Assembly: GCF_029582805.1 (NCBI RefSeq)
Contig: NZ_JAKKUT010000001.1
Span: 1-64,000, forward strand
DNA from: Candidatus Synechococcus calcipolaris G9
Lineage (GTDB): Bacteria > Cyanobacteriota > Cyanobacteriia > Thermosynechococcales > Thermosynechococcaceae
Length of the DNA: 64,000 nucleotides
Direction of reading: 5' to 3'
Part shown: positions 1-4,951 of the stretch, piece after piece
How positions within the stretch are numbered: position 1 is the stretch's first letter
How the letters are laid out: every line of letters begins with the position of its first letter
Program-made: the position numbers and the translations under genes
The notes under the pieces: model-generated
What the model was told of the DNA's origin: nothing
Seen by the model: the letters and a program-made list of their open reading frames with translations, nothing else
The model's database searches: none

Positions 1-410
1 GGTGAGCCATCGTTAGCATCCCTTAGTTTTTTGTTGTAGAAGTCTTCAAGCTCTCGCTGTCTGGCTTGCCTTTGGCGAGATATATCCTCTAGCTTGCCAA
101 CCTCATCAATCAAAACAGGGACGGCAAGGGCCGGCCCTAGCAATTTTCCCAAACCACCTAACCCGCTTGGTGGCTTGGGCAGTTTGGGTAATTTGGGGAT
201 TTTAGGGAGTGGGATTTTAGGGGATGTTGGGGCCGGAGTCTGAGGGGTCAGGGGGCCAGGATGGGGCTTAGGGCTGTAGGGTGGCCGGGGGGGCTGGCCT
301 GGGCCATTGCCAAGGTCAACTAGGGGACGGTTAGCGGCCTCTTGGATCTGTCTCTGCCGTAATGCTTCCTTGTAGGCTTCCGCTTCCGGTACTAGATGGG
401 GGGGAATCAA
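1..410 (-). CDS. Proline-rich hypothetical protein (C-terminus outside window)
   Basis: Reading the minus strand there is an uninterrupted frame from a TTG at 410 to the window edge. It starts LIPPHLVPEAEAYKEALRQR, continues through a proline/lysine repeat region (KIPLPKIPKLPKLPKPP), a short hydrophobic stretch (LLGPALAVPVLIDEV) and a charged, probably helical tail (RQRQARQRELEDFYNKKL). The TTG lies 11 bp after the stop of the upstream gene at 421-738, so the two are probably co-transcribed. The start codon is uncertain because no ATG or clear ribosome binding site is visible. I do not recognise a family. The low-complexity linker and the mobile neighbours suggest an accessory, possibly phage- or plasmid-derived structural protein, but that is a guess. 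Confidence 0.4.
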   Translation of the reverse strand, partial: MIPPHLVPEAEAYKEALRQRQIQEAANRPLVDLGNGPGQPPRPPYSPKPHPGPLTPQTPAPTSPKIPLPKIPKLPKLPKPPSGLGGLGKLLGPALAVPVLIDEVGKLEDISRQRQARQRELEDFYNKKLRDANDGS

Positions 411-420
411 TTAACCACAC

Positions 421-738
421 CTAGTTTGATGTGTAGCTAGTTGGTAATGCTGTAGCTGACAATTCGCCCACCCCATTACTCCAAATTTTTCCCTGACCAC
501 GCCAACCAGCAACCAAGGGGAGATATAGGACAATGGCAAGCCGCTCTGGGTTGGTTGATTGGTTCTCAAAGAAAACGGATTGTACGTTAGCACTGCGGGC
601 CGCTTGACCTGGAGCTACCACGATAGTAGCTGATGGGTTAACCTCAGCTAGGGCTGAAGCTGCCCATGCTGCCAATTCTTCAAGGGTGTTCACATTGCTA
701 GGAATATTTGCGGTGCTAAAAGCTGTCATTTTCGACAA
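421..738 (-). CDS. Hypothetical protein of accessory island
   Basis: 105 residues, ATG at 738. The N-terminus reads FSTANIPSNVNTLEELAAW, the middle is a probable beta-rich segment (FFENQSTNPERLAIVLYLPL), and it ends GELSATALPTSYTSN. It has no signal peptide and one mildly hydrophobic stretch (LAIVLYLPLVAGW). I recall similar short proteins in other cyanobacterial mobile regions but cannot name a family or function. It reads away from the recombinase at 923-1480, and the region between them (739-922) must hold promoters for both. It probably forms an operon with the proline-rich frame at 1-410. Confidence 0.55.
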   Translation of the reverse strand: MSKMTAFSTANIPSNVNTLEELAAWAASALAEVNPSATIVVAPGQAARSANVQSVFFENQSTNPERLAIVLYLPLVAGWRGQGKIWSNGVGELSATALPTSYTSN

Positions 739-922
739 TCCTTAAAGGTTGGATACTGTCAGATTAGACCGCCGTTAAAGCCATGACAATTAACGTATTT
801 TAGATAGAATACGATGGGATAGAAAAACCTAGAACCTTTACAGGAACTAGGTTTAGCGTGTGCAACTAAAAGGAGATTATCTTAGGCATTCGTATTATAA
901 ATCAATGAATTACTAATTACTA
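739..922. promoter_or_regulatory. Divergent intergenic region, AT-rich
   Basis: This 184-bp spacer separates the minus-strand gene ending at 738 from the recombinase at 923. It is clearly more AT-rich than its surroundings. Two promoter-like elements are visible on the plus strand: TTAACG followed by TAGAAT around 789-807, and TATAAT-like text (TATTATAAAT) at 893-902 just before the recombinase start. No operator-like palindrome was found. Promoter assignment is by eye only. Confidence 0.3.
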
Positions 923-1480
923 ATGAAAATTCTACGATCTGGACAAGCTGAACCGTTAAACCCTGAAACTTTTTTAAGGCTTTATCAGGAATTGAAACCG
1001 CCCCATAATTTTATTTTAGGGGTGACTTGGTACTGTGCTGAACGGGTTGGGGCCGTTTGCCAACTACGGCGGGCCAATGTTTACGATCGCAAGGGGAAAC
1101 CCCTAGATGCTGTGGTAATTCCCGGGGCCAGTAGAAAGGATCGGTGTACCAGGGAAGTATCAGTTACCCCTAAACTGCGAAAATTATTAATCCAGATTCC
1201 TAAATCTGATTCAGAGTGGCTCTTTCCAAGCCAGTTAAACCCTAAGAAACATATTCATCCTGATTGCTATAAGGCCGCGCTCTCTAGGGCCTGCAAACGA
1301 TTGGGCCTAGTGGGCTACTCTAGCCATTCTGCTAGACGTGGGGCCATCACTCATTTAGCGCGTTCTGGAATATCTGTTAGGGTCATTCAGCAAATATCGG
1401 GACATAAATCCTTGGCCAGTGTCCAGCGGTATATTGACTTTGATTCGATAGAAGTTAGGGGAGGCCTAGAGCTTCTATAG
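923..1480 (+). CDS. Tyrosine recombinase / integrase, catalytic domain only
   Basis: 185 residues. It carries the full catalytic set of the tyrosine recombinase (phage integrase) family: Arg41 (CAERVGA), a probable beta-hairpin Lys72, the HxxR box at His135-Arg138 (HSARRG), His161 (SGHKS) and nucleophile Tyr170 (VQRYID). It lacks the N-terminal core-binding (SAM-like) domain of typical XerC/phage integrases, so it is about half the usual length. The ATG at 923 follows an AT-rich promoter-like region and no upstream in-frame start is obvious. Such minimal recombinases occur on cyanobacterial plasmids and small integrative elements. Its likely job is excision, integration or resolution of this island. 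No core att repeat was identified by eye. Confidence 0.85.
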   Translation: MKILRSGQAEPLNPETFLRLYQELKPPHNFILGVTWYCAERVGAVCQLRRANVYDRKGKPLDAVVIPGASRKDRCTREVSVTPKLRKLLIQIPKSDSEWLFPSQLNPKKHIHPDCYKAALSRACKRLGLVGYSSHSARRGAITHLARSGISVRVIQQISGHKSLASVQRYIDFDSIEVRGGLELL

Positions 1481-1891
1481 GGTCTTGCCTATATATTTGC
1501 TCCTGGTCTTGCCATCCTGTTTCCAGAATCCATACCAGTATGGGCCATGGGGGCATCGTTTACAGCCTGATTTTCCGCAGTATACCCCTTTTAGTTGGTA
1601 GGTCATGGTGGGGCCTGCCATTGGGTTCTTATCTAACCCGTTTTCCGTGGTTGGGGATGAATCGGTTAGATAAGATGCCTTAGAGCTTTCTAAGGCATCC
1701 GCTTTACGTTTAGGTTTTGCGGCTTCCAGGGGTTGAGGAGTATTTAGGGAATCGGCGATCGGTGCCATGGAATTATTTAGGTCTTGCCGATCGCTGGACT
1801 GATTGCGATCGCCGCCGGCCTGGTTGCGATCGCTTTGTAAGGCATCTTCAATGGTTAATTGCCGTGGATCATCCCAATGATCAGGACTCAT
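1475..1891 (-). CDS. Island protein with DUF6788-like Cys-rich C-terminus (tandem copy A)
   Basis: 138 residues, ATG at 1891. The N-terminus HWDDPRQLT is followed by a variable pentapeptide (IEDAL here), then a polar, probably disordered linker of about 80 residues identical to copy B. The C-terminus is CGKSGCKRCPHGPYWYGFW followed by KTRSKYIGK. That tail, with three cysteines, a histidine and YIGK, resembles the short DUF6788-type module seen in cyanobacteria and archaea, possibly zinc- or nucleic-acid-binding. The gene overlaps the end of the recombinase by 6 bp (convergent) and the end of copy B by 11 bp. The function is unknown. The modular make-up, with a constant core and different ends, is the notable property. 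Confidence 0.65.
   Translation of the reverse strand: MSPDHWDDPRQLTIEDALQSDRNQAGGDRNQSSDRQDLNNSMAPIADSLNTPQPLEAAKPKRKADALESSKASYLTDSSPTTENGLDKNPMAGPTMTYQLKGVYCGKSGCKRCPHGPYWYGFWKQDGKTRSKYIGKTL
1590..1883. repeat. Direct repeat, copy 1 (294 bp; first 248 bp exact)
   Basis: Bases 1590-1837 match 2011-2258 base for base at a constant offset of 421. After a 16-bp window that differs (1838-1853 against 2259-2274), the match resumes for 30 bp (1854-1883 against 2275-2304). The repeat spans most of the coding sequence of tandem copy A. Confidence 0.97.
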
Positions 1892-2309
1892 GGCCTAGCA
1901 CCTGGGCTTGGCTGTCAATCGGTTGGGGGCCAAAGTCATCGGGAAGTTGATCAATGGTTATATCAAGGGCCTTGCATAGGTTTTTAACTTGCCTTGGGGA
2001 TAATTGCGGCTTTAGTTGGTAGGTCATGGTGGGGCCTGCCATTGGGTTCTTATCTAACCCGTTTTCCGTGGTTGGGGATGAATCGGTTAGATAAGATGCC
2101 TTAGAGCTTTCTAAGGCATCCGCTTTACGTTTAGGTTTTGCGGCTTCCAGGGGTTGAGGAGTATTTAGGGAATCGGCGATCGGTGCCATGGAATTATTTA
2201 GGTCTTGCCGATCGCTGGACTGATTGCGATCGCCGCCGGCCTGGTTGCGATCGCTTTGAAGGTAAAAGTCAAAAGTTAATTGCCGTGGATCATCCCAATG
2301 ATCATCCAT
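1881..2309 (-). CDS. Island protein sharing identical core with its neighbour (tandem copy B)
   Basis: 142 residues, ATG at 2309. It has the same HWDDPRQLT head and the same polar linker as copy A. The pentapeptide differs (FDFYL), and after the shared MTYQLK the C-terminus is unrelated: SPRQVKNLCKALDITIDQLP, which looks like a short helical, HTH-like module. The start overlaps the 3' end of the XRE gene by 8 bp, so XRE, copy B and copy A probably form one minus-strand operon. The function is unknown. Copy A and copy B look like products of a recent segmental duplication followed by exchange of the ends. Confidence 0.6.
   Translation of the reverse strand: MDDHWDDPRQLTFDFYLQSDRNQAGGDRNQSSDRQDLNNSMAPIADSLNTPQPLEAAKPKRKADALESSKASYLTDSSPTTENGLDKNPMAGPTMTYQLKPQLSPRQVKNLCKALDITIDQLPDDFGPQPIDSQAQVLGHES
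2011..2304. repeat. Direct repeat, copy 2 (294 bp; first 248 bp exact)
   Basis: This is the second copy of the repeat at 1590-1883, lying inside tandem copy B. The complete identity of the 248-bp core, including synonymous positions, indicates either very recent duplication or gene conversion. The 16-bp difference near the N-terminal codons is therefore not explained by slow drift. Confidence 0.97.
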
Positions 2310-2544
2310 TTATCTGATGGATCCGCTTGATATTCTCTAGAGCCTCTACCAATTCAGCTAGAGAGCAGTTTAGAAGATGGCAAAGCTTCTGCATTTCAGA
2401 AGGGGTAAGCGTAGGCTCTGTTTTTCCGCGTTCCCAATCTGAGATAGTTGCTTGCCTAACTCCCAGTAGCTCTGCAAGTTGTACCTGACTCAATCCAACG
2501 TTTTGCCGCAACATTTTTAGAGTTAGTAAATCTTCATTTCCCAT
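2302..2544 (-). CDS. XRE-family HTH repressor
   Basis: 80 residues, ATG at 2544. It is a single Cro/C1-type helix-turn-helix domain: LRQNVGLSQVQLAELLGVRQ, then ATISDWERGKTEPT, the canonical helix 2-turn-helix 3 pattern with the WERG motif. No dimerisation or sensor domain is present, as in many small element-encoded repressors and antitoxin-like regulators. Two operator-like palindromes lie at and just upstream of its start (2545-2562, 2586-2603), so it probably represses itself and perhaps the divergent plus-strand ORFs from 2716. Downstream it overlaps copy B, making it the first gene of the operon. Confidence 0.88.
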   Translation of the reverse strand: MGNEDLLTLKMLRQNVGLSQVQLAELLGVRQATISDWERGKTEPTLTPSEMQKLCHLLNCSLAELVEALENIKRIHQING

Positions 2545-2562
2545 TATACGCTTGACCGGATA
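2545..2562. promoter_or_regulatory. Candidate XRE operator O1 (imperfect)
   Basis: TATACGCTTGACCGGATA abuts the XRE start codon (ATG complement at 2542-2544). It matches the perfect palindrome at 2586-2603 in its first 11 bases and in the same 8-2-8 layout. Occupancy here would block translation-proximal transcription of the repressor gene, which fits autoregulation. Confidence 0.6.
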
Positions 2563-2585
2563 AGAGAGTTAGGCTAGAGTGCTGA

Positions 2586-2603
2586 TATACGCTTGAGCGT
2601 ATA
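2586..2603. promoter_or_regulatory. Candidate XRE operator O2 (perfect palindrome)
   Basis: TATACGCT-TG-AGCGTATA is an 8-bp inverted repeat, perfect except for the 2-bp centre. It lies 42 bp upstream of the XRE start and 113 bp upstream of the divergent ORF at 2716. Cro/C1-type repressors bind such short palindromes. The second, degenerate copy at 2545-2562 supports a paired-operator arrangement. Confidence 0.7.
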
Positions 2604-2649
2604 GAGCTTTGAAAACAGAACAAGCGATCGCCGGTTGGCAATCGCTCAG

Positions 2650-2718
2650 GGAGTTTTCATCTTTTTTTCACCCTAACGCGATCGCGGCTAAGAACCGGCG
2701 ATCGCTAATTCCCCCATG
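2650..2718 (+). repeat. Leader repeat, copy 1
   Basis: GGAGT, a T-run, CACC, a HIP1-containing core (GCGATCGCGGCTAAGAAC) and CGATCGCT lead into the ATG at 2716. The same series recurs at 2960-3030 before the next small ORF with only scattered differences. It may be a duplicated promoter/leader or the upstream part of a duplicated gene cassette. Confidence 0.85.
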
Positions 2719-2952
2719 CCTAACTTTATATTTCTGCCCAGAATTCAAACAACGTTCAACCTTGAACACTTAGTAAGGATTGAGTGGATAGATTCTGAGA
2801 TTCAGATTGTACGTTTAGACTTTGTGGACGGCGATCCCCTGTTTATCGAAATGGCAGAGGCCCTAGAGCTTGAGAAATGGATCGAGGAATACTTTCCAGT
2901 GTTTTCGGTCAGGGCCGTAAATCCTCCACAAGATAACCCAGATGATTTTTAA
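2716..2952 (+). CDS. Small hypothetical protein, cassette 1
   Basis: 78 residues. It contains a likely beta-rich first half (FNLEHLVRIEWIDSEIQIVRLDFV) and a C-terminal helix (EMAEALELEKWIEEYF). It shares layout and several residues with the 112-aa product at 3028-3366: FxxxP near the N-terminus, H-x-V in the first strand, an IxxI pair and a C-terminal helix. They look like diverged paralogues. Because both also have duplicated leaders, the whole leader-plus-gene unit was probably duplicated. I do not recognise the family. It stands on the strand opposite to the XRE operon and may be under its control. Confidence 0.5.
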   Translation: MPNFIFLPRIQTTFNLEHLVRIEWIDSEIQIVRLDFVDGDPLFIEMAEALELEKWIEEYFPVFSVRAVNPPQDNPDDF

Positions 2953-2959
2953 TCCGCCT

Positions 2960-3030
2960 GGAGTCACTGTCTTTTTTTTTCACCGTATCGCGATCGCGGC
3001 TAAGAACTGACGATCGCTCTAACTGCCATG
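2960..3030 (+). repeat. Leader repeat, copy 2
   Basis: Near-copy of 2650-2718: GGAGT, a nine-T run, CACC, then GCGATCGCGGCTAAGAAC and CGATCGCT immediately before the ATG at 3028. In addition, AATCCGCCTG occurs just after the stop codon of each small ORF (2951-2960 and 3370-3379), so the repeated unit has conserved borders on both sides. Confidence 0.85.
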
Positions 3031-3366
3031 AATGATTTTGTAGACATCCCAACTTTTTTTAAGGTGGGAAACCACTGGGTTAACTTACAAGCGATTGACT
3101 GTATTACTGAATTTCAGGCCGAAGGCAAAGCAATGATTTTTGTTTTGCAGATCGGGGAGTCACGGATCCAAGTTTCAGGTGCGGGGGCGATCAGACTGCG
3201 AGCCATCCTAGCGTTTCTGGATGACATCACAGATCGCGCGATCGTTCGTCTAGCCTGCCCTAATTTTCCTAATGAACAGGAATCAACTAGCTCAGATTGG
3301 GATGCCGCCGTTGACACAGCCAGCCAGTACGAAACCCTAAACAAGGCTGATTACTTCACTTTCTAG
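3028..3366 (+). CDS. Small hypothetical protein, cassette 2
   Basis: 112 residues, ATG at 3028 at the end of the repeated leader. Pattern: FFKVGNHWVNLQAIDCI, then a strand segment (MIFVLQIGESRIQVSG), a helix (GAIRLRAILAFLDDI) and a polar, likely disordered tail. It is the longer sister of the product of 2716-2952. No known domain is recognised and there is no signal peptide or membrane segment. The pair may be accessory proteins of the element, but nothing in the sequence fixes a function. Confidence 0.5.
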   Translation: MNDFVDIPTFFKVGNHWVNLQAIDCITEFQAEGKAMIFVLQIGESRIQVSGAGAIRLRAILAFLDDITDRAIVRLACPNFPNEQESTSSDWDAAVDTASQYETLNKADYFTF

Positions 3367-3380
3367 ATCAATCCGCCTGA

Positions 3381-3644
3381 TGAGTTCCCTTGAAGCCAGG
3401 GAACGAAATTGCCCCTATCCATTGGGGCGATCGCGGATCGGCTTCCATCACCGACCGCCAGGGTAATCACCTAAAGGCTGATGATTTTGGCATGATATTG
3501 GCCCCGTTGCCTTTTCATTATCTCGGTCACGGTCTTAGGCCACCCTGCCCTTGTGGCCTTCAAGTAGATTTGGGAATCTTTGGGACAATCACGGGCCGAT
3601 GCTTGGGGAACTGATGGAACGTCCCTAGCTAGAGTTAATCCACC
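3381..3644 (+). ncRNA. Hairpin-rich region upstream of IS110-like recombinase (candidate bridge-RNA-like transcript)
   Basis: The 278 bp between the small ORF and the DEDD recombinase contain several perfect short stems: GTTCCCT/AGGGAAC (3384-3390 with 3398-3404), GCCCC/GGGGC (3411-3415 with 3424-3428, 8-nt loop), CGATC/GATCG (3429-3441) and AGGCCAC/GTGGCCT (3537-3543 with 3553-3559, 9-nt loop). In IS110-family elements the structured bridge RNA is transcribed from just this position, upstream of the recombinase, and is of similar size. The structural resemblance and position are what I see. That this is a bridge RNA is inference. A short ORF (3390-3614) covers the same bases and is the competing explanation. 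Confidence 0.3.
3390..3614 (+). CDS. Doubtful small ORF overlapping the hairpin region
   Basis: 74 residues from a TTG. It has no clear ribosome binding site, because the start lies inside the stem of the first hairpin. The product (IHWGDRGSASITDRQGNHLK, then a Cys/Pro/Gly-rich second half) has some protein-like composition but no recognised domain. It may be real, or simply open by chance over a structured non-coding region. Codon-substitution analysis in relatives would separate these. Confidence 0.25.
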   Translation: MKPGNEIAPIHWGDRGSASITDRQGNHLKADDFGMILAPLPFHYLGHGLRPPCPCGLQVDLGIFGTITGRCLGN

Positions 3645-4829
3645 ATGATCAAAATGATGGGTATCGACATAAGCCGATGCCGCGCTTCAGTTTGCCTTAT
3701 CAACGAATTGCCAGATGAACCGCTTGATTGGTTCAGGCAGAATAGAGATAAAATCATTGACATTTACCCCAACCGTGAGGGCATAGAACAGTTACTCAAT
3801 TTAGGGCCTACCCATGTAGCCTTAGAGCCTACGGGTATTCACTACAGCAAGATTTGGGTAAATTATTTATCCCAGATGGGTGCGGAAATCCTATGGGTAG
3901 GGCATAGCCAACTATGCAGTACCCGAAAGTCATTTAGGTTATCTGGCAAGAATGATCATGCCGATGCCCTTGCCTTAGCTTGCTATGGGTTGCAGAAGTT
4001 GGATAAGCCTAAATGGTTTCTCAATTTTGACCTATACAGCGAAGCGTATAAATTGCGGCAAGTTTGCCTAGAAATTAACCACCTGGAACGGCGATCAGTG
4101 CCGATCATGAATCGGATCAGACAACAGTTAAGCCATGAATGGCCCGAAATGGCACAATCCCGATCTAGGGGCCCGCTATGGTTCTGGATTGCTGGGGAAC
4201 CGGCCAAGAGCAAACGTACAGAAACTATCTACACAAGGGACTTGGCCCATTCTATAGGGATGGGATTAAGTGACTTTACCCGCTTCCAGGCTATGCAATG
4301 GGTAGAAATTGAGAAACGGCTTAATCGCCTGGATGCTGAGTTAGTAGAACTGCTAAAAAATCCCGATTACATCCTGTATCGGCAAGCCATGGGGCCGTTT
4401 AATTTTAGTCTCAGGATTGAGAGCATTCTACTGGCTCACATCTATCCCTTTGAAAATTTCCTTAATGCCGATGGTTCAGAAATCATTGAATGGGTTAAAG
4501 GTAGCAAGGGACAGCGTTCTAAGCGTAATCGTAGCCAGAAGGCCTTTAAGCTGTTCATTGGAATTGGCAAGGTTGAAAAATCCAGCGGTGAATCAACGGA
4601 GTGGGTAAAGGGAGGCTCTAAGCTGTGTCGTTCTGCCCTATGGCAATATATCCATACCATGATTGAAATCCGATCACATCGCCCTAAGAATGCCATCGGT
4701 GAAGAATTGGGGGCCTTGTGTGATGAGTTGAAATCGTACCGACTGCATGGGCGTGAGATACAGGCTAGGCTTTATTGCAGAACCGCTAACCTACTTTACA
4801 AAGCCGTGCTATCAACCTTGAGAAAATAA
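3645..4829 (+). CDS. IS110-like DEDD recombinase / transposase (divergent)
   Basis: 394 residues, ATG at 3645. The N-terminal RuvC-like half carries the DEDD set of the IS110 family: Asp8 (GIDIS), Glu61 (ALEPTG), and Asp104 and Asp107 (GKNDHADALA). The C-terminal half has the Transposase_20-like signature with a candidate serine nucleophile at 313-314 (EKSSGES), followed by KGGSKLCRSALWQYI (322-336). Family knowledge: IS110 enzymes use both domains and a non-coding bridge RNA to pair donor and target DNA. The insertion between the halves and the loose C-terminal consensus make it a divergent member. Flanking inverted repeats are not expected for IS110 and none are seen. It could also be an invertase (Piv-like) or domesticated. 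Confidence 0.8.
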   Translation: MIKMMGIDISRCRASVCLINELPDEPLDWFRQNRDKIIDIYPNREGIEQLLNLGPTHVALEPTGIHYSKIWVNYLSQMGAEILWVGHSQLCSTRKSFRLSGKNDHADALALACYGLQKLDKPKWFLNFDLYSEAYKLRQVCLEINHLERRSVPIMNRIRQQLSHEWPEMAQSRSRGPLWFWIAGEPAKSKRTETIYTRDLAHSIGMGLSDFTRFQAMQWVEIEKRLNRLDAELVELLKNPDYILYRQAMGPFNFSLRIESILLAHIYPFENFLNADGSEIIEWVKGSKGQRSKRNRSQKAFKLFIGIGKVEKSSGESTEWVKGGSKLCRSALWQYIHTMIEIRSHRPKNAIGEELGALCDELKSYRLHGREIQARLYCRTANLLYKAVLSTLRK

Positions 4830-4848
4830 ATTCTATTCCCTTAGATTG

Positions 4849-4875
4849 AAACCACTAGGGTCTAGTGGTTTTTTT
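4849..4875 (+). terminator. Intrinsic terminator after the recombinase
   Basis: AACCACTAG (4850-4858), loop GGT, CTAGTGGTT (4862-4870), then a run of T. It is a perfect 9-bp stem, extended by an A-T pair, placed 20 bp after the stop of the recombinase. It insulates the accessory island from the psbV region. Confidence 0.92.
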
Positions 4876-4951
4876 GTGTCTGAACTTGACGGGATCATTT
4901 AACGGTATAAGTAGATAATGATACTTGGTCGTTGATCCCAGCGAGGAACCT

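Follow-up and report, generated by a model that had tools for sequence, protein, structure and literature searches.

How does an IS110-type recombinase obtain its guide RNA when the ends of the element that carries it lie many kilobases apart? This question is raised by a locus in the cyanobacterium Candidatus Synechococcus calcipolaris G9, which we analyzed within a window of 64,000 nucleotides (assembly GCF_029582805.1, contig NZ_JAKKUT010000001.1, positions 1 to 64,000, forward strand). In a preliminary description, a candidate bridge-RNA element had been placed at 3381-4829, consisting of a divergent IS110-type recombinase gene and a putative bridge RNA in front of it. In IS621, a promoter across the joined element ends directly drives the bridge RNA (PMC11208160). 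Here, the left end is located many kilobases away, which rules out a joined-end promoter beside the bridge RNA. Our analysis suggests that the recombinase gene belongs to a larger, provirus-like element and occupies its right end, and that a hammerhead ribozyme directly precedes the bridge RNA and would set the 5' end of this RNA by self-cleavage. Coordinates of all features are listed in Table 1.

A predicted hammerhead ribozyme heads the bridge RNA

The genome carries three such recombinase genes. The products of the two others share 36-45% identity with the protein from the window, but the DNA upstream of the genes is better conserved, i.e. 98% identity over 850 bp for sister copy L002, and 88% over ~820 bp plus 83% over 86 bp for sister copy L003. 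The common stretch stops just past a CTGATGA-stem-GAAA-stem-TC motif, in which a ribozyme was noticed on visual inspection and subsequently put to the test in homologues. The minimum free energy (MFE) fold of 3367-3448 is an exact three-helix hammerhead (-31.2 kcal/mol vs -23.7 kcal/mol for shuffles, z = -2.4). A core-only pattern that does not require any pairing was applied to the 430 nt preceding the start of each homologue and returned 71 distinct matches, 43 of which were aligned using MAFFT. Throughout these 43 sequences the core CUGANGA/GAAA/NUH (3377-3383, 3405-3408 and 3431-3432 in the window) is invariant or nearly so, and the three helices are paired in 93.6, 97.2 and 99.2% of cases with double changes. 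Overall, 92.5% of the cells are paired vs 69.9% in shuffles, and the covariation score amounts to 0.612 vs 0.160 in shuffles (0/500) and 0.06-0.15 for slid structures. Among the 71 matches, the most variable pairs of stems II and III (II-2, II-4, III-3 to III-7) are paired in 82-97% vs 34-58% expected by composition, and each displays four to six pair types.

The loop of stem II pairs with the bases immediately 3' of stem I, and the letters of this pseudoknot vary by locus (GACTC/GAGTC, GACCC/GGGTC, GACAC/GTGTC, GATCC/GGATC, GAAGCC/GGCTTC). It is 78.7% paired across the homologues, with double changes in five of five pairs, and cognate pairing (4.63) exceeds permuted pairing (3.52), with none of 2000 permutations reaching the cognate value. 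A pseudoknot of this type is common in such ribozymes and critical for fast cleavage, as reported by Perreault et al. (PMC3088659). Our own covariance model scores the window copy, which is among its 43 training sequences, with 57 bits (E 1.3e-14). Judged by its sequence, 3371-3445 thus represents a hammerhead ribozyme of type I: the core is canonical, and the three helices and the pseudoknot are present. Self-cleavage is predicted between 3432 and 3433. The hairpins that had been noted upstream of the gene are real and beyond chance, but most of the perfect stems belong to the hammerhead ahead of the bridge RNA and not to the bridge RNA itself.

The guides of the bridge RNA match target and donor

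Behind the predicted cleavage site, a consensus structure common to 18 relatives comprises two hairpins that contain internal loops, and the basal stem of the first hairpin covaries at nearly every pair. The guides of the window copy were read by alignment to this consensus. When the bridge RNA of the window is folded by itself, the MFE structure lacks the two-loop form, and this fold was not used. Fold energy of the 206 nt downstream of the ribozyme is not unusual (z = -0.45), while the homologous region covaries in relatives.

Guides could be extracted automatically at 46 loci. At 39 of them the 8-letter left donor guide recurs exactly at the right end of the element, near the end of the recombinase gene, and variants of guide and right end change together (AGAGTGAA, AGACTGAA, AGAAAGAA, AGAATGAA, AGAGGGAA). 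The right target guide fits its own right flank with 4.41/5 vs 1.41/5 for flanks of other loci (39 loci; 0/20000 permutations); the guides of deviating members (L001-L006) were assigned manually and are excluded from this permutation test. The match is weak (1-2 of 5) at four of the 39 tested loci, and the guide of L024 does not match its own right flank. The two target guides of L006 are unlike those of L027, although a 1.57-kb stretch of these loci is 98.7% identical, and in either case the right guide fits the flank of its own locus. An RNA from 3433 to ~3620 with a target-binding and a donor-binding loop is thus strongly supported by sequence comparison: two guide-bearing loops are present and their guides are complementary to target and donor, as is characteristic of the IS110 family. 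The bridge RNA proposed earlier is thereby corroborated by a covarying structure in homologues, by guides matching the donor and target borders and by the empty site described below. A small open reading frame (ORF) covering the same bases (3390-3614) was rejected as a gene; the frame is not conserved and contains stops in both sister copies of this genome.

The recombinase gene lies at the right end of a provirus-like element

The window starts at base 1 of contig C1, within the element. For the left junction we tested the rule known from IS621, i.e. left target guide followed by core and left end. The genome contains the junction predicted via the guides, GCATGATTGCCC, at two sites, one of them being C8:1259-1270(-) near a contig end. 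On the inner side of this junction, the C8 DNA shares 97% identity with the left-end region of the complete sister element L002 (C8:353752 to C8:365520, 11,770 bp), and a mutS2-like gene is found close by at the C8 edge. The sister element itself adjoins an RNase D-like gene at its left end and a TPR-like gene at its right end (names given by eye from translations). When the rule was applied to the upstream regions of other genomes and to the sister copy, left ends consisting of the left target guide and GAATCCCCA were present in 14 of 17 elements. These 14 sites comprise an 8-9 nt match to the element's own bridge-RNA region followed by TCCCCA and are located 7-18 kb upstream; chance matches of this type amount to ~1% per candidate site. 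For L158, L160 and L165 no left end was detected within 20 kb. No left end was found with the exact reverse complement of the right donor guide (GATTGTCCC) as query; prediction from the bulge-type ends of relatives was correct.

The target site ATGGCATGAT|AATGATACTTGGTCGTTGATCCCA is unbroken in 7 relatives, where it is located upstream of a psbV-like region, with one base being different in L178. Here, the halves ATGGCATGAT|AATGATACTTGG are separated by the element: one is on C8, the other directly follows the right end at 4916 in the window, and the right flank matching the right target guide comprises 4914-4921. The intact site of the relatives is an empty site, and no information other than the guide RNA was needed to predict it. 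Insertion is thus scarless and takes place at a short core, as expected of RNA-guided recombinases of the IS110 family.

The locus could still be read as an ordinary small IS110 insertion sequence (about 3370-4916) behind unrelated chromosomal genes, a reading to which the greatest similarity of close copies, from hammerhead or hairpin through the right end, would lend itself. We give it hardly any credence, as the guide-predicted left ends lie far upstream, the left end of the window copy is at a contig edge near the mutS2-like gene, and the target site joining the outer flanks is contiguous in relatives; the empty site refutes it. The window element is ~10 kb in length and provirus-like. The unit described at first turned out to be only its right end: the ribozyme starts at 3371, and position 3381 is already within its core, the right end is at 4916 and the left end on another contig. 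Purely vertical inheritance without mobility was not borne out; the element is mobile.

Possible role of the hammerhead in bridge RNA maturation

The hammerhead core was found in 70 of 89 non-redundant full-length relatives by a strict core search. The covariance model recovered 4 of the 19 members missed, some of them with altered cores, and those without ribozyme display a plain hairpin at the same place, as far as inspected. Members lacking the hammerhead are scattered over the protein tree, requiring at least nine changes, as expected for losses. Across 117 cyanobacterial genomes, the model yielded 22 matches with E below 1e-6. Hammerheads frequently coincide with the stop codon of the preceding ORF (62% within -10 to +30 nt vs 9% in the control). 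At the 71 hammerhead loci, e.g. L001 and L003, this ORF often ends at or inside the core (UGA of CUGAUGA); such an arrangement would let translation compete with ribozyme folding. At L035 (1143-1273), the core is altered (CCGAUGA) and the loop of stem III carries a long insertion.

The ribozyme motif with its covariation, the guides, the target and both ends are borne out by the sequences and suggest the following mechanism. An operon controlled by the Xre-like repressor would be transcribed into one RNA comprising the small cargo genes, the hammerhead, the bridge RNA and the IS110-type recombinase gene. In vivo, ribozyme cleavage of this transcript between 3432 and 3433 would detach the upstream message, so that bridge RNA and recombinase mRNA gain a free 5' end. 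The target-binding loop would recognize GGCATGAT|AATGA upstream of psbV and the donor-binding loop the joined ends of the element, and the recombinase would insert the circular element at the core GAT. Since the ribozyme product starts with the bridge RNA and no joined-end promoter is adjacent, we infer that the 5' end of this RNA arises by self-cleavage; cleavage would presumably be needed for its function. We regard this explanation as a whole, i.e. an RNA-guided provirus-like element with ribozyme-freed bridge RNA and guided insertion, as probable. We also lean, if only slightly, towards the wider idea that this cyanobacterial IS110 lineage serves as integrase of several unrelated provirus-like elements and ancestrally depended on the hammerhead to excise the bridge RNA from a repressor-controlled operon. 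If true, this would represent ribozyme-processed, RNA-guided viral integration, in which cutting is possibly coupled to translation of the gene stopping at the core.

Several points weigh against this interpretation. The window element crosses a contig gap, and its junction is deduced from identity to the sister element. Rfam, whose thresholds are curated search cut-offs, gave no match in one scan and sub-threshold matches in others (type III model, 17.3 bits vs a gathering cut-off of 48.5 bits). About 15 of the 89 relatives have no recognizable ribozyme and keep hairpin and bridge RNA; cleavage is therefore not essential in all of them. Finally, the same hammerhead design is present on the minus strand of L196 (G183:C29, 1501-1577) in a Mu-like prophage operon encoding GemA (PF06252) and a DNA transposition protein, with no IS110 gene nearby, and may thus be a general phage RNA-processing device.

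The low Rfam score and the loss or alteration of the hammerhead in about a fifth of the relatives would also suit a decayed or hitch-hiking relic, inactive and outside the logic of the system. However, the core is strictly kept, the stems covary in deeply diverged members and the pseudoknot of fast hammerheads is retained, which makes a relic very unlikely. The main rival is a general role in phage operon processing: the hammerhead would stand beside the bridge RNA by chance and tune expression of recombinase and cargo instead of guide maturation. This is suggested by L196, by published bacterial hammerheads near integrases and in prophage operons (PMC3088659), and by the location at the stop codon of a cargo ORF. 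Yet 20 of the 22 matches in the sampled cyanobacterial genomes are directly ahead of an IS110_2 gene and its bridge RNA and not between cargo genes, and the association with IS110 stays although the cargo changes completely. We consider a mere operon-processing role possible but rather doubtful.

The recombinase has a divergent C-terminal half with a known fold

The protein matches NCBIfam model NF051857 (transpos_IS110_2) with 438 bits (cut-off 180) and Pfam PF01548 (DEDD_Tnp_IS110) above the cut-off; PF02371 scored 20.3, slightly under its cut-off of 21.3. Residues D8, E61, D104, D107, S314 and G315 are invariant in 19 diverged homologues, confirming the DEDD set, the C-terminal Ser-Gly motif and ORF 3645-4829 as such. 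An undescribed branch of recombinases, as surmised earlier, it is not, the family being already named in NCBIfam. The C-terminal half had likewise been called unusual. In the predicted structure (mean pLDDT 87), residues 1-393 align to ISCro4 (9t56, Z 21.8) and IS621 (8wt9, Z 21.4), and the next matches are far lower (TIGR-TasR, Z 15.2; RuvC, Z 10.9). Sequence searches reach the ISCro4/IS621 entries by the RuvC half only. Therefore, according to the model, the C-terminal half is divergent in sequence but not in fold, and not categorically new.

Comparison with known systems

IS621 and ISCro4 (PMC11208160; PDB 8wt6, 9t56) share with the present system the DEDD residues and C-terminal Ser, the full-length fold (Z about 21), and a bridge RNA that precedes the gene and whose target and donor loops carry matching guides. 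Unlike in these elements, a hammerhead heads the bridge RNA here, the core is GAA/GAT, the left end is of the TCCCCA type, and 7-18 kb of provirus-like genes separate left end and bridge RNA. The window protein is a member of NF051857, but this family is defined by a protein model alone, and its record covers neither RNA, ribozyme nor element ends. Filamentous phages bearing IS110 genes (Neisseria Nf, Thermus Zuza8/phiOH16; PMC11437467) resemble our elements in having the recombinase at one provirus end, and relatives L154 and L155 are inoviruses; such use of the recombinase is therefore not new in itself. In contrast, the accessible part of that work mentions neither ribozyme nor guide RNA, and for the window element only a provirus-like nature is claimed. 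Bacterial and prophage type-I hammerheads (PMC3088659) exhibit the same CUGAUGA...GAAA...UC core, three helices and loop II pseudoknot, but here the ribozyme is directly ahead of the DNA-targeting guide RNA of a recombinase. In VIPR systems, hammerheads are interspersed in guide RNA arrays of an RNA-guided system, according to the available portion of a 2026 preprint (PMC13142463); ribozyme-processed guides therefore have a precedent, in a different system. Protein, RNA and function differ (vrRNA arrays, inter-phage conflict), and that portion describes no recombination.

Hammerheads linked to IS110 elements or bridge RNAs did not appear in the open-access literature searched. Judged by these papers, what is new here is a bridge-RNA recombinase whose guide RNA is ribozyme-headed. 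In a study on IS1111/IS110 elements (PMC11187229), the ends of seekRNA/bridge RNA were suggested to come from processing, probably by the transposase itself. One lineage appears to carry a built-in catalytic RNA for this purpose, cutting at a predictable nucleotide, and bridge RNA end formation is therefore directly testable. The system would offer a function for one set of bacterial hammerheads that has so far had no assigned role, illustrate how an IS110 guide can act far from the element ends, and provide bridge RNA designs that process themselves by nature and come with large natural cargo (7-18 kb). A natural record of reprogramming exists in the numerous related elements, whose target guides differ from one another and match the respective flanks.

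Table 1. Features of the element and its insertion site
Feature	Position	Strand	Evidence or remark
Right part of provirus-like integrative element	1..4916	+	contig starts inside element; left end on contig C8 (C8:1-1263)
Tyrosine recombinase, catalytic domain only, 185 aa	923..1480	+	PF00589 1.2e-18; phrog_216 5.3e-28
Xre/HTH_3 repressor-like gene	2302..2544	-	PF01381 3.7e-17; divergent from operon ending in recombinase
Small cargo ORF 1, 78 aa	2716..2952	+	within 850-bp stretch at 98% identity to sister copy L002
Small cargo ORF 2, 112 aa	3028..3366	+	stop codon 10 nt ahead of ribozyme core; missing in sister copy L003
Type-I hammerhead ribozyme (predicted)	3371..3445	+	MFE fold; covariation (43 homologues); own covariance model
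Ribozyme stem I	3371-3376/3433-3438
Ribozyme core	CUGAUGA 3377-3383; GAA 3405-3407; C17 3432
Ribozyme stem II	3384-3390/3398-3404
Ribozyme stem III	3408-3415/3424-3431
Loop II pseudoknot	3392-3397/3440-3445
Predicted cleavage site	between 3432 and 3433
Bridge RNA (predicted)	3433..3620	+	5' end = ribozyme product; 3' end approximate; consensus in relatives; guide matches
Left target guide TTGGCATGAT	3487..3496	+	matches target GGCATGAT; target in relatives, left flank on C8
Right target guide TCATTATC	3515..3522	+	reverse complement GATAATGA = target core + right half; right flank, intact site in relatives
Left donor guide AAGTAGAT	3562..3569	+	identical to element right end 4909-4916
Right donor guide GGGACAATC	3582..3590	+	pairs with left end GATTGCCC, one bulged base; left junction GCATGATTGCCC
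IS110-type DEDD recombinase, 394 aa	3645..4829	+	NF051857 2.9e-131; PF01548; fold match ISCro4/IS621
Terminator-like hairpin after recombinase gene	4848..4872	+	consensus match; number found equals shuffles
Element right end = left donor half AAGTAGAT	4909..4916	+	core GAT 4914-4916; chromosomal target half from 4917; empty site in same-family relatives
Target of element GGCATGATAATGA			halves GGCATGAT and GATAATGA
Joined element ends (donor)			...AAGTAGAT|TGCCC...

Gene content of the element and its relatives

Apart from bridge RNA and recombinase at the right end, the genes differ between elements. An Xre-like gene is present in five of eight complete elements. A tyrosine recombinase lacking the N-terminal domain, as encoded at 923-1480, is likewise kept in five of the eight, although these already possess the RNA-guided recombinase. 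A promoter scan of the window gave nothing above chance. Near-duplicate ORFs in tandem with a long identical stretch in common are located at 1475-1891 and 1881-2309 (minus strand). Each cargo ORF is preceded by a copy of a 45-bp direct repeat (2662-2706 and 2974-3018, 91% identity) with a GCGATCGC hairpin, and the second ORF is missing from sister copy L003, which looks like the loss or gain of a gene cassette between the repeats.

Relatives of the recombinase were absent from phage records and were not found in viral contigs; plasmid records contained only two. Within the sister element L002, an endolysin-like gene was recognized and the remaining genes had no match; Zot had no match among its tested ORFs, and the window element itself has a sequence gap. 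The inovirus L154 encodes a Zot-like ATPase (PF05707) and Rep_trans (PF02486), and L155 has the same genes. These two proviruses (G190) are closely related, their recombinase regions being 98.7% identical, and the IS110_2 recombinase has integrated them at different targets, with target guides changed accordingly. The region 4583-8655 of L134 contains, beside an endolysin-like gene, two large proline-rich genes (526 and 861 aa) that are partly duplicated and match nothing in the databases; they possibly represent an undescribed virion gene set.
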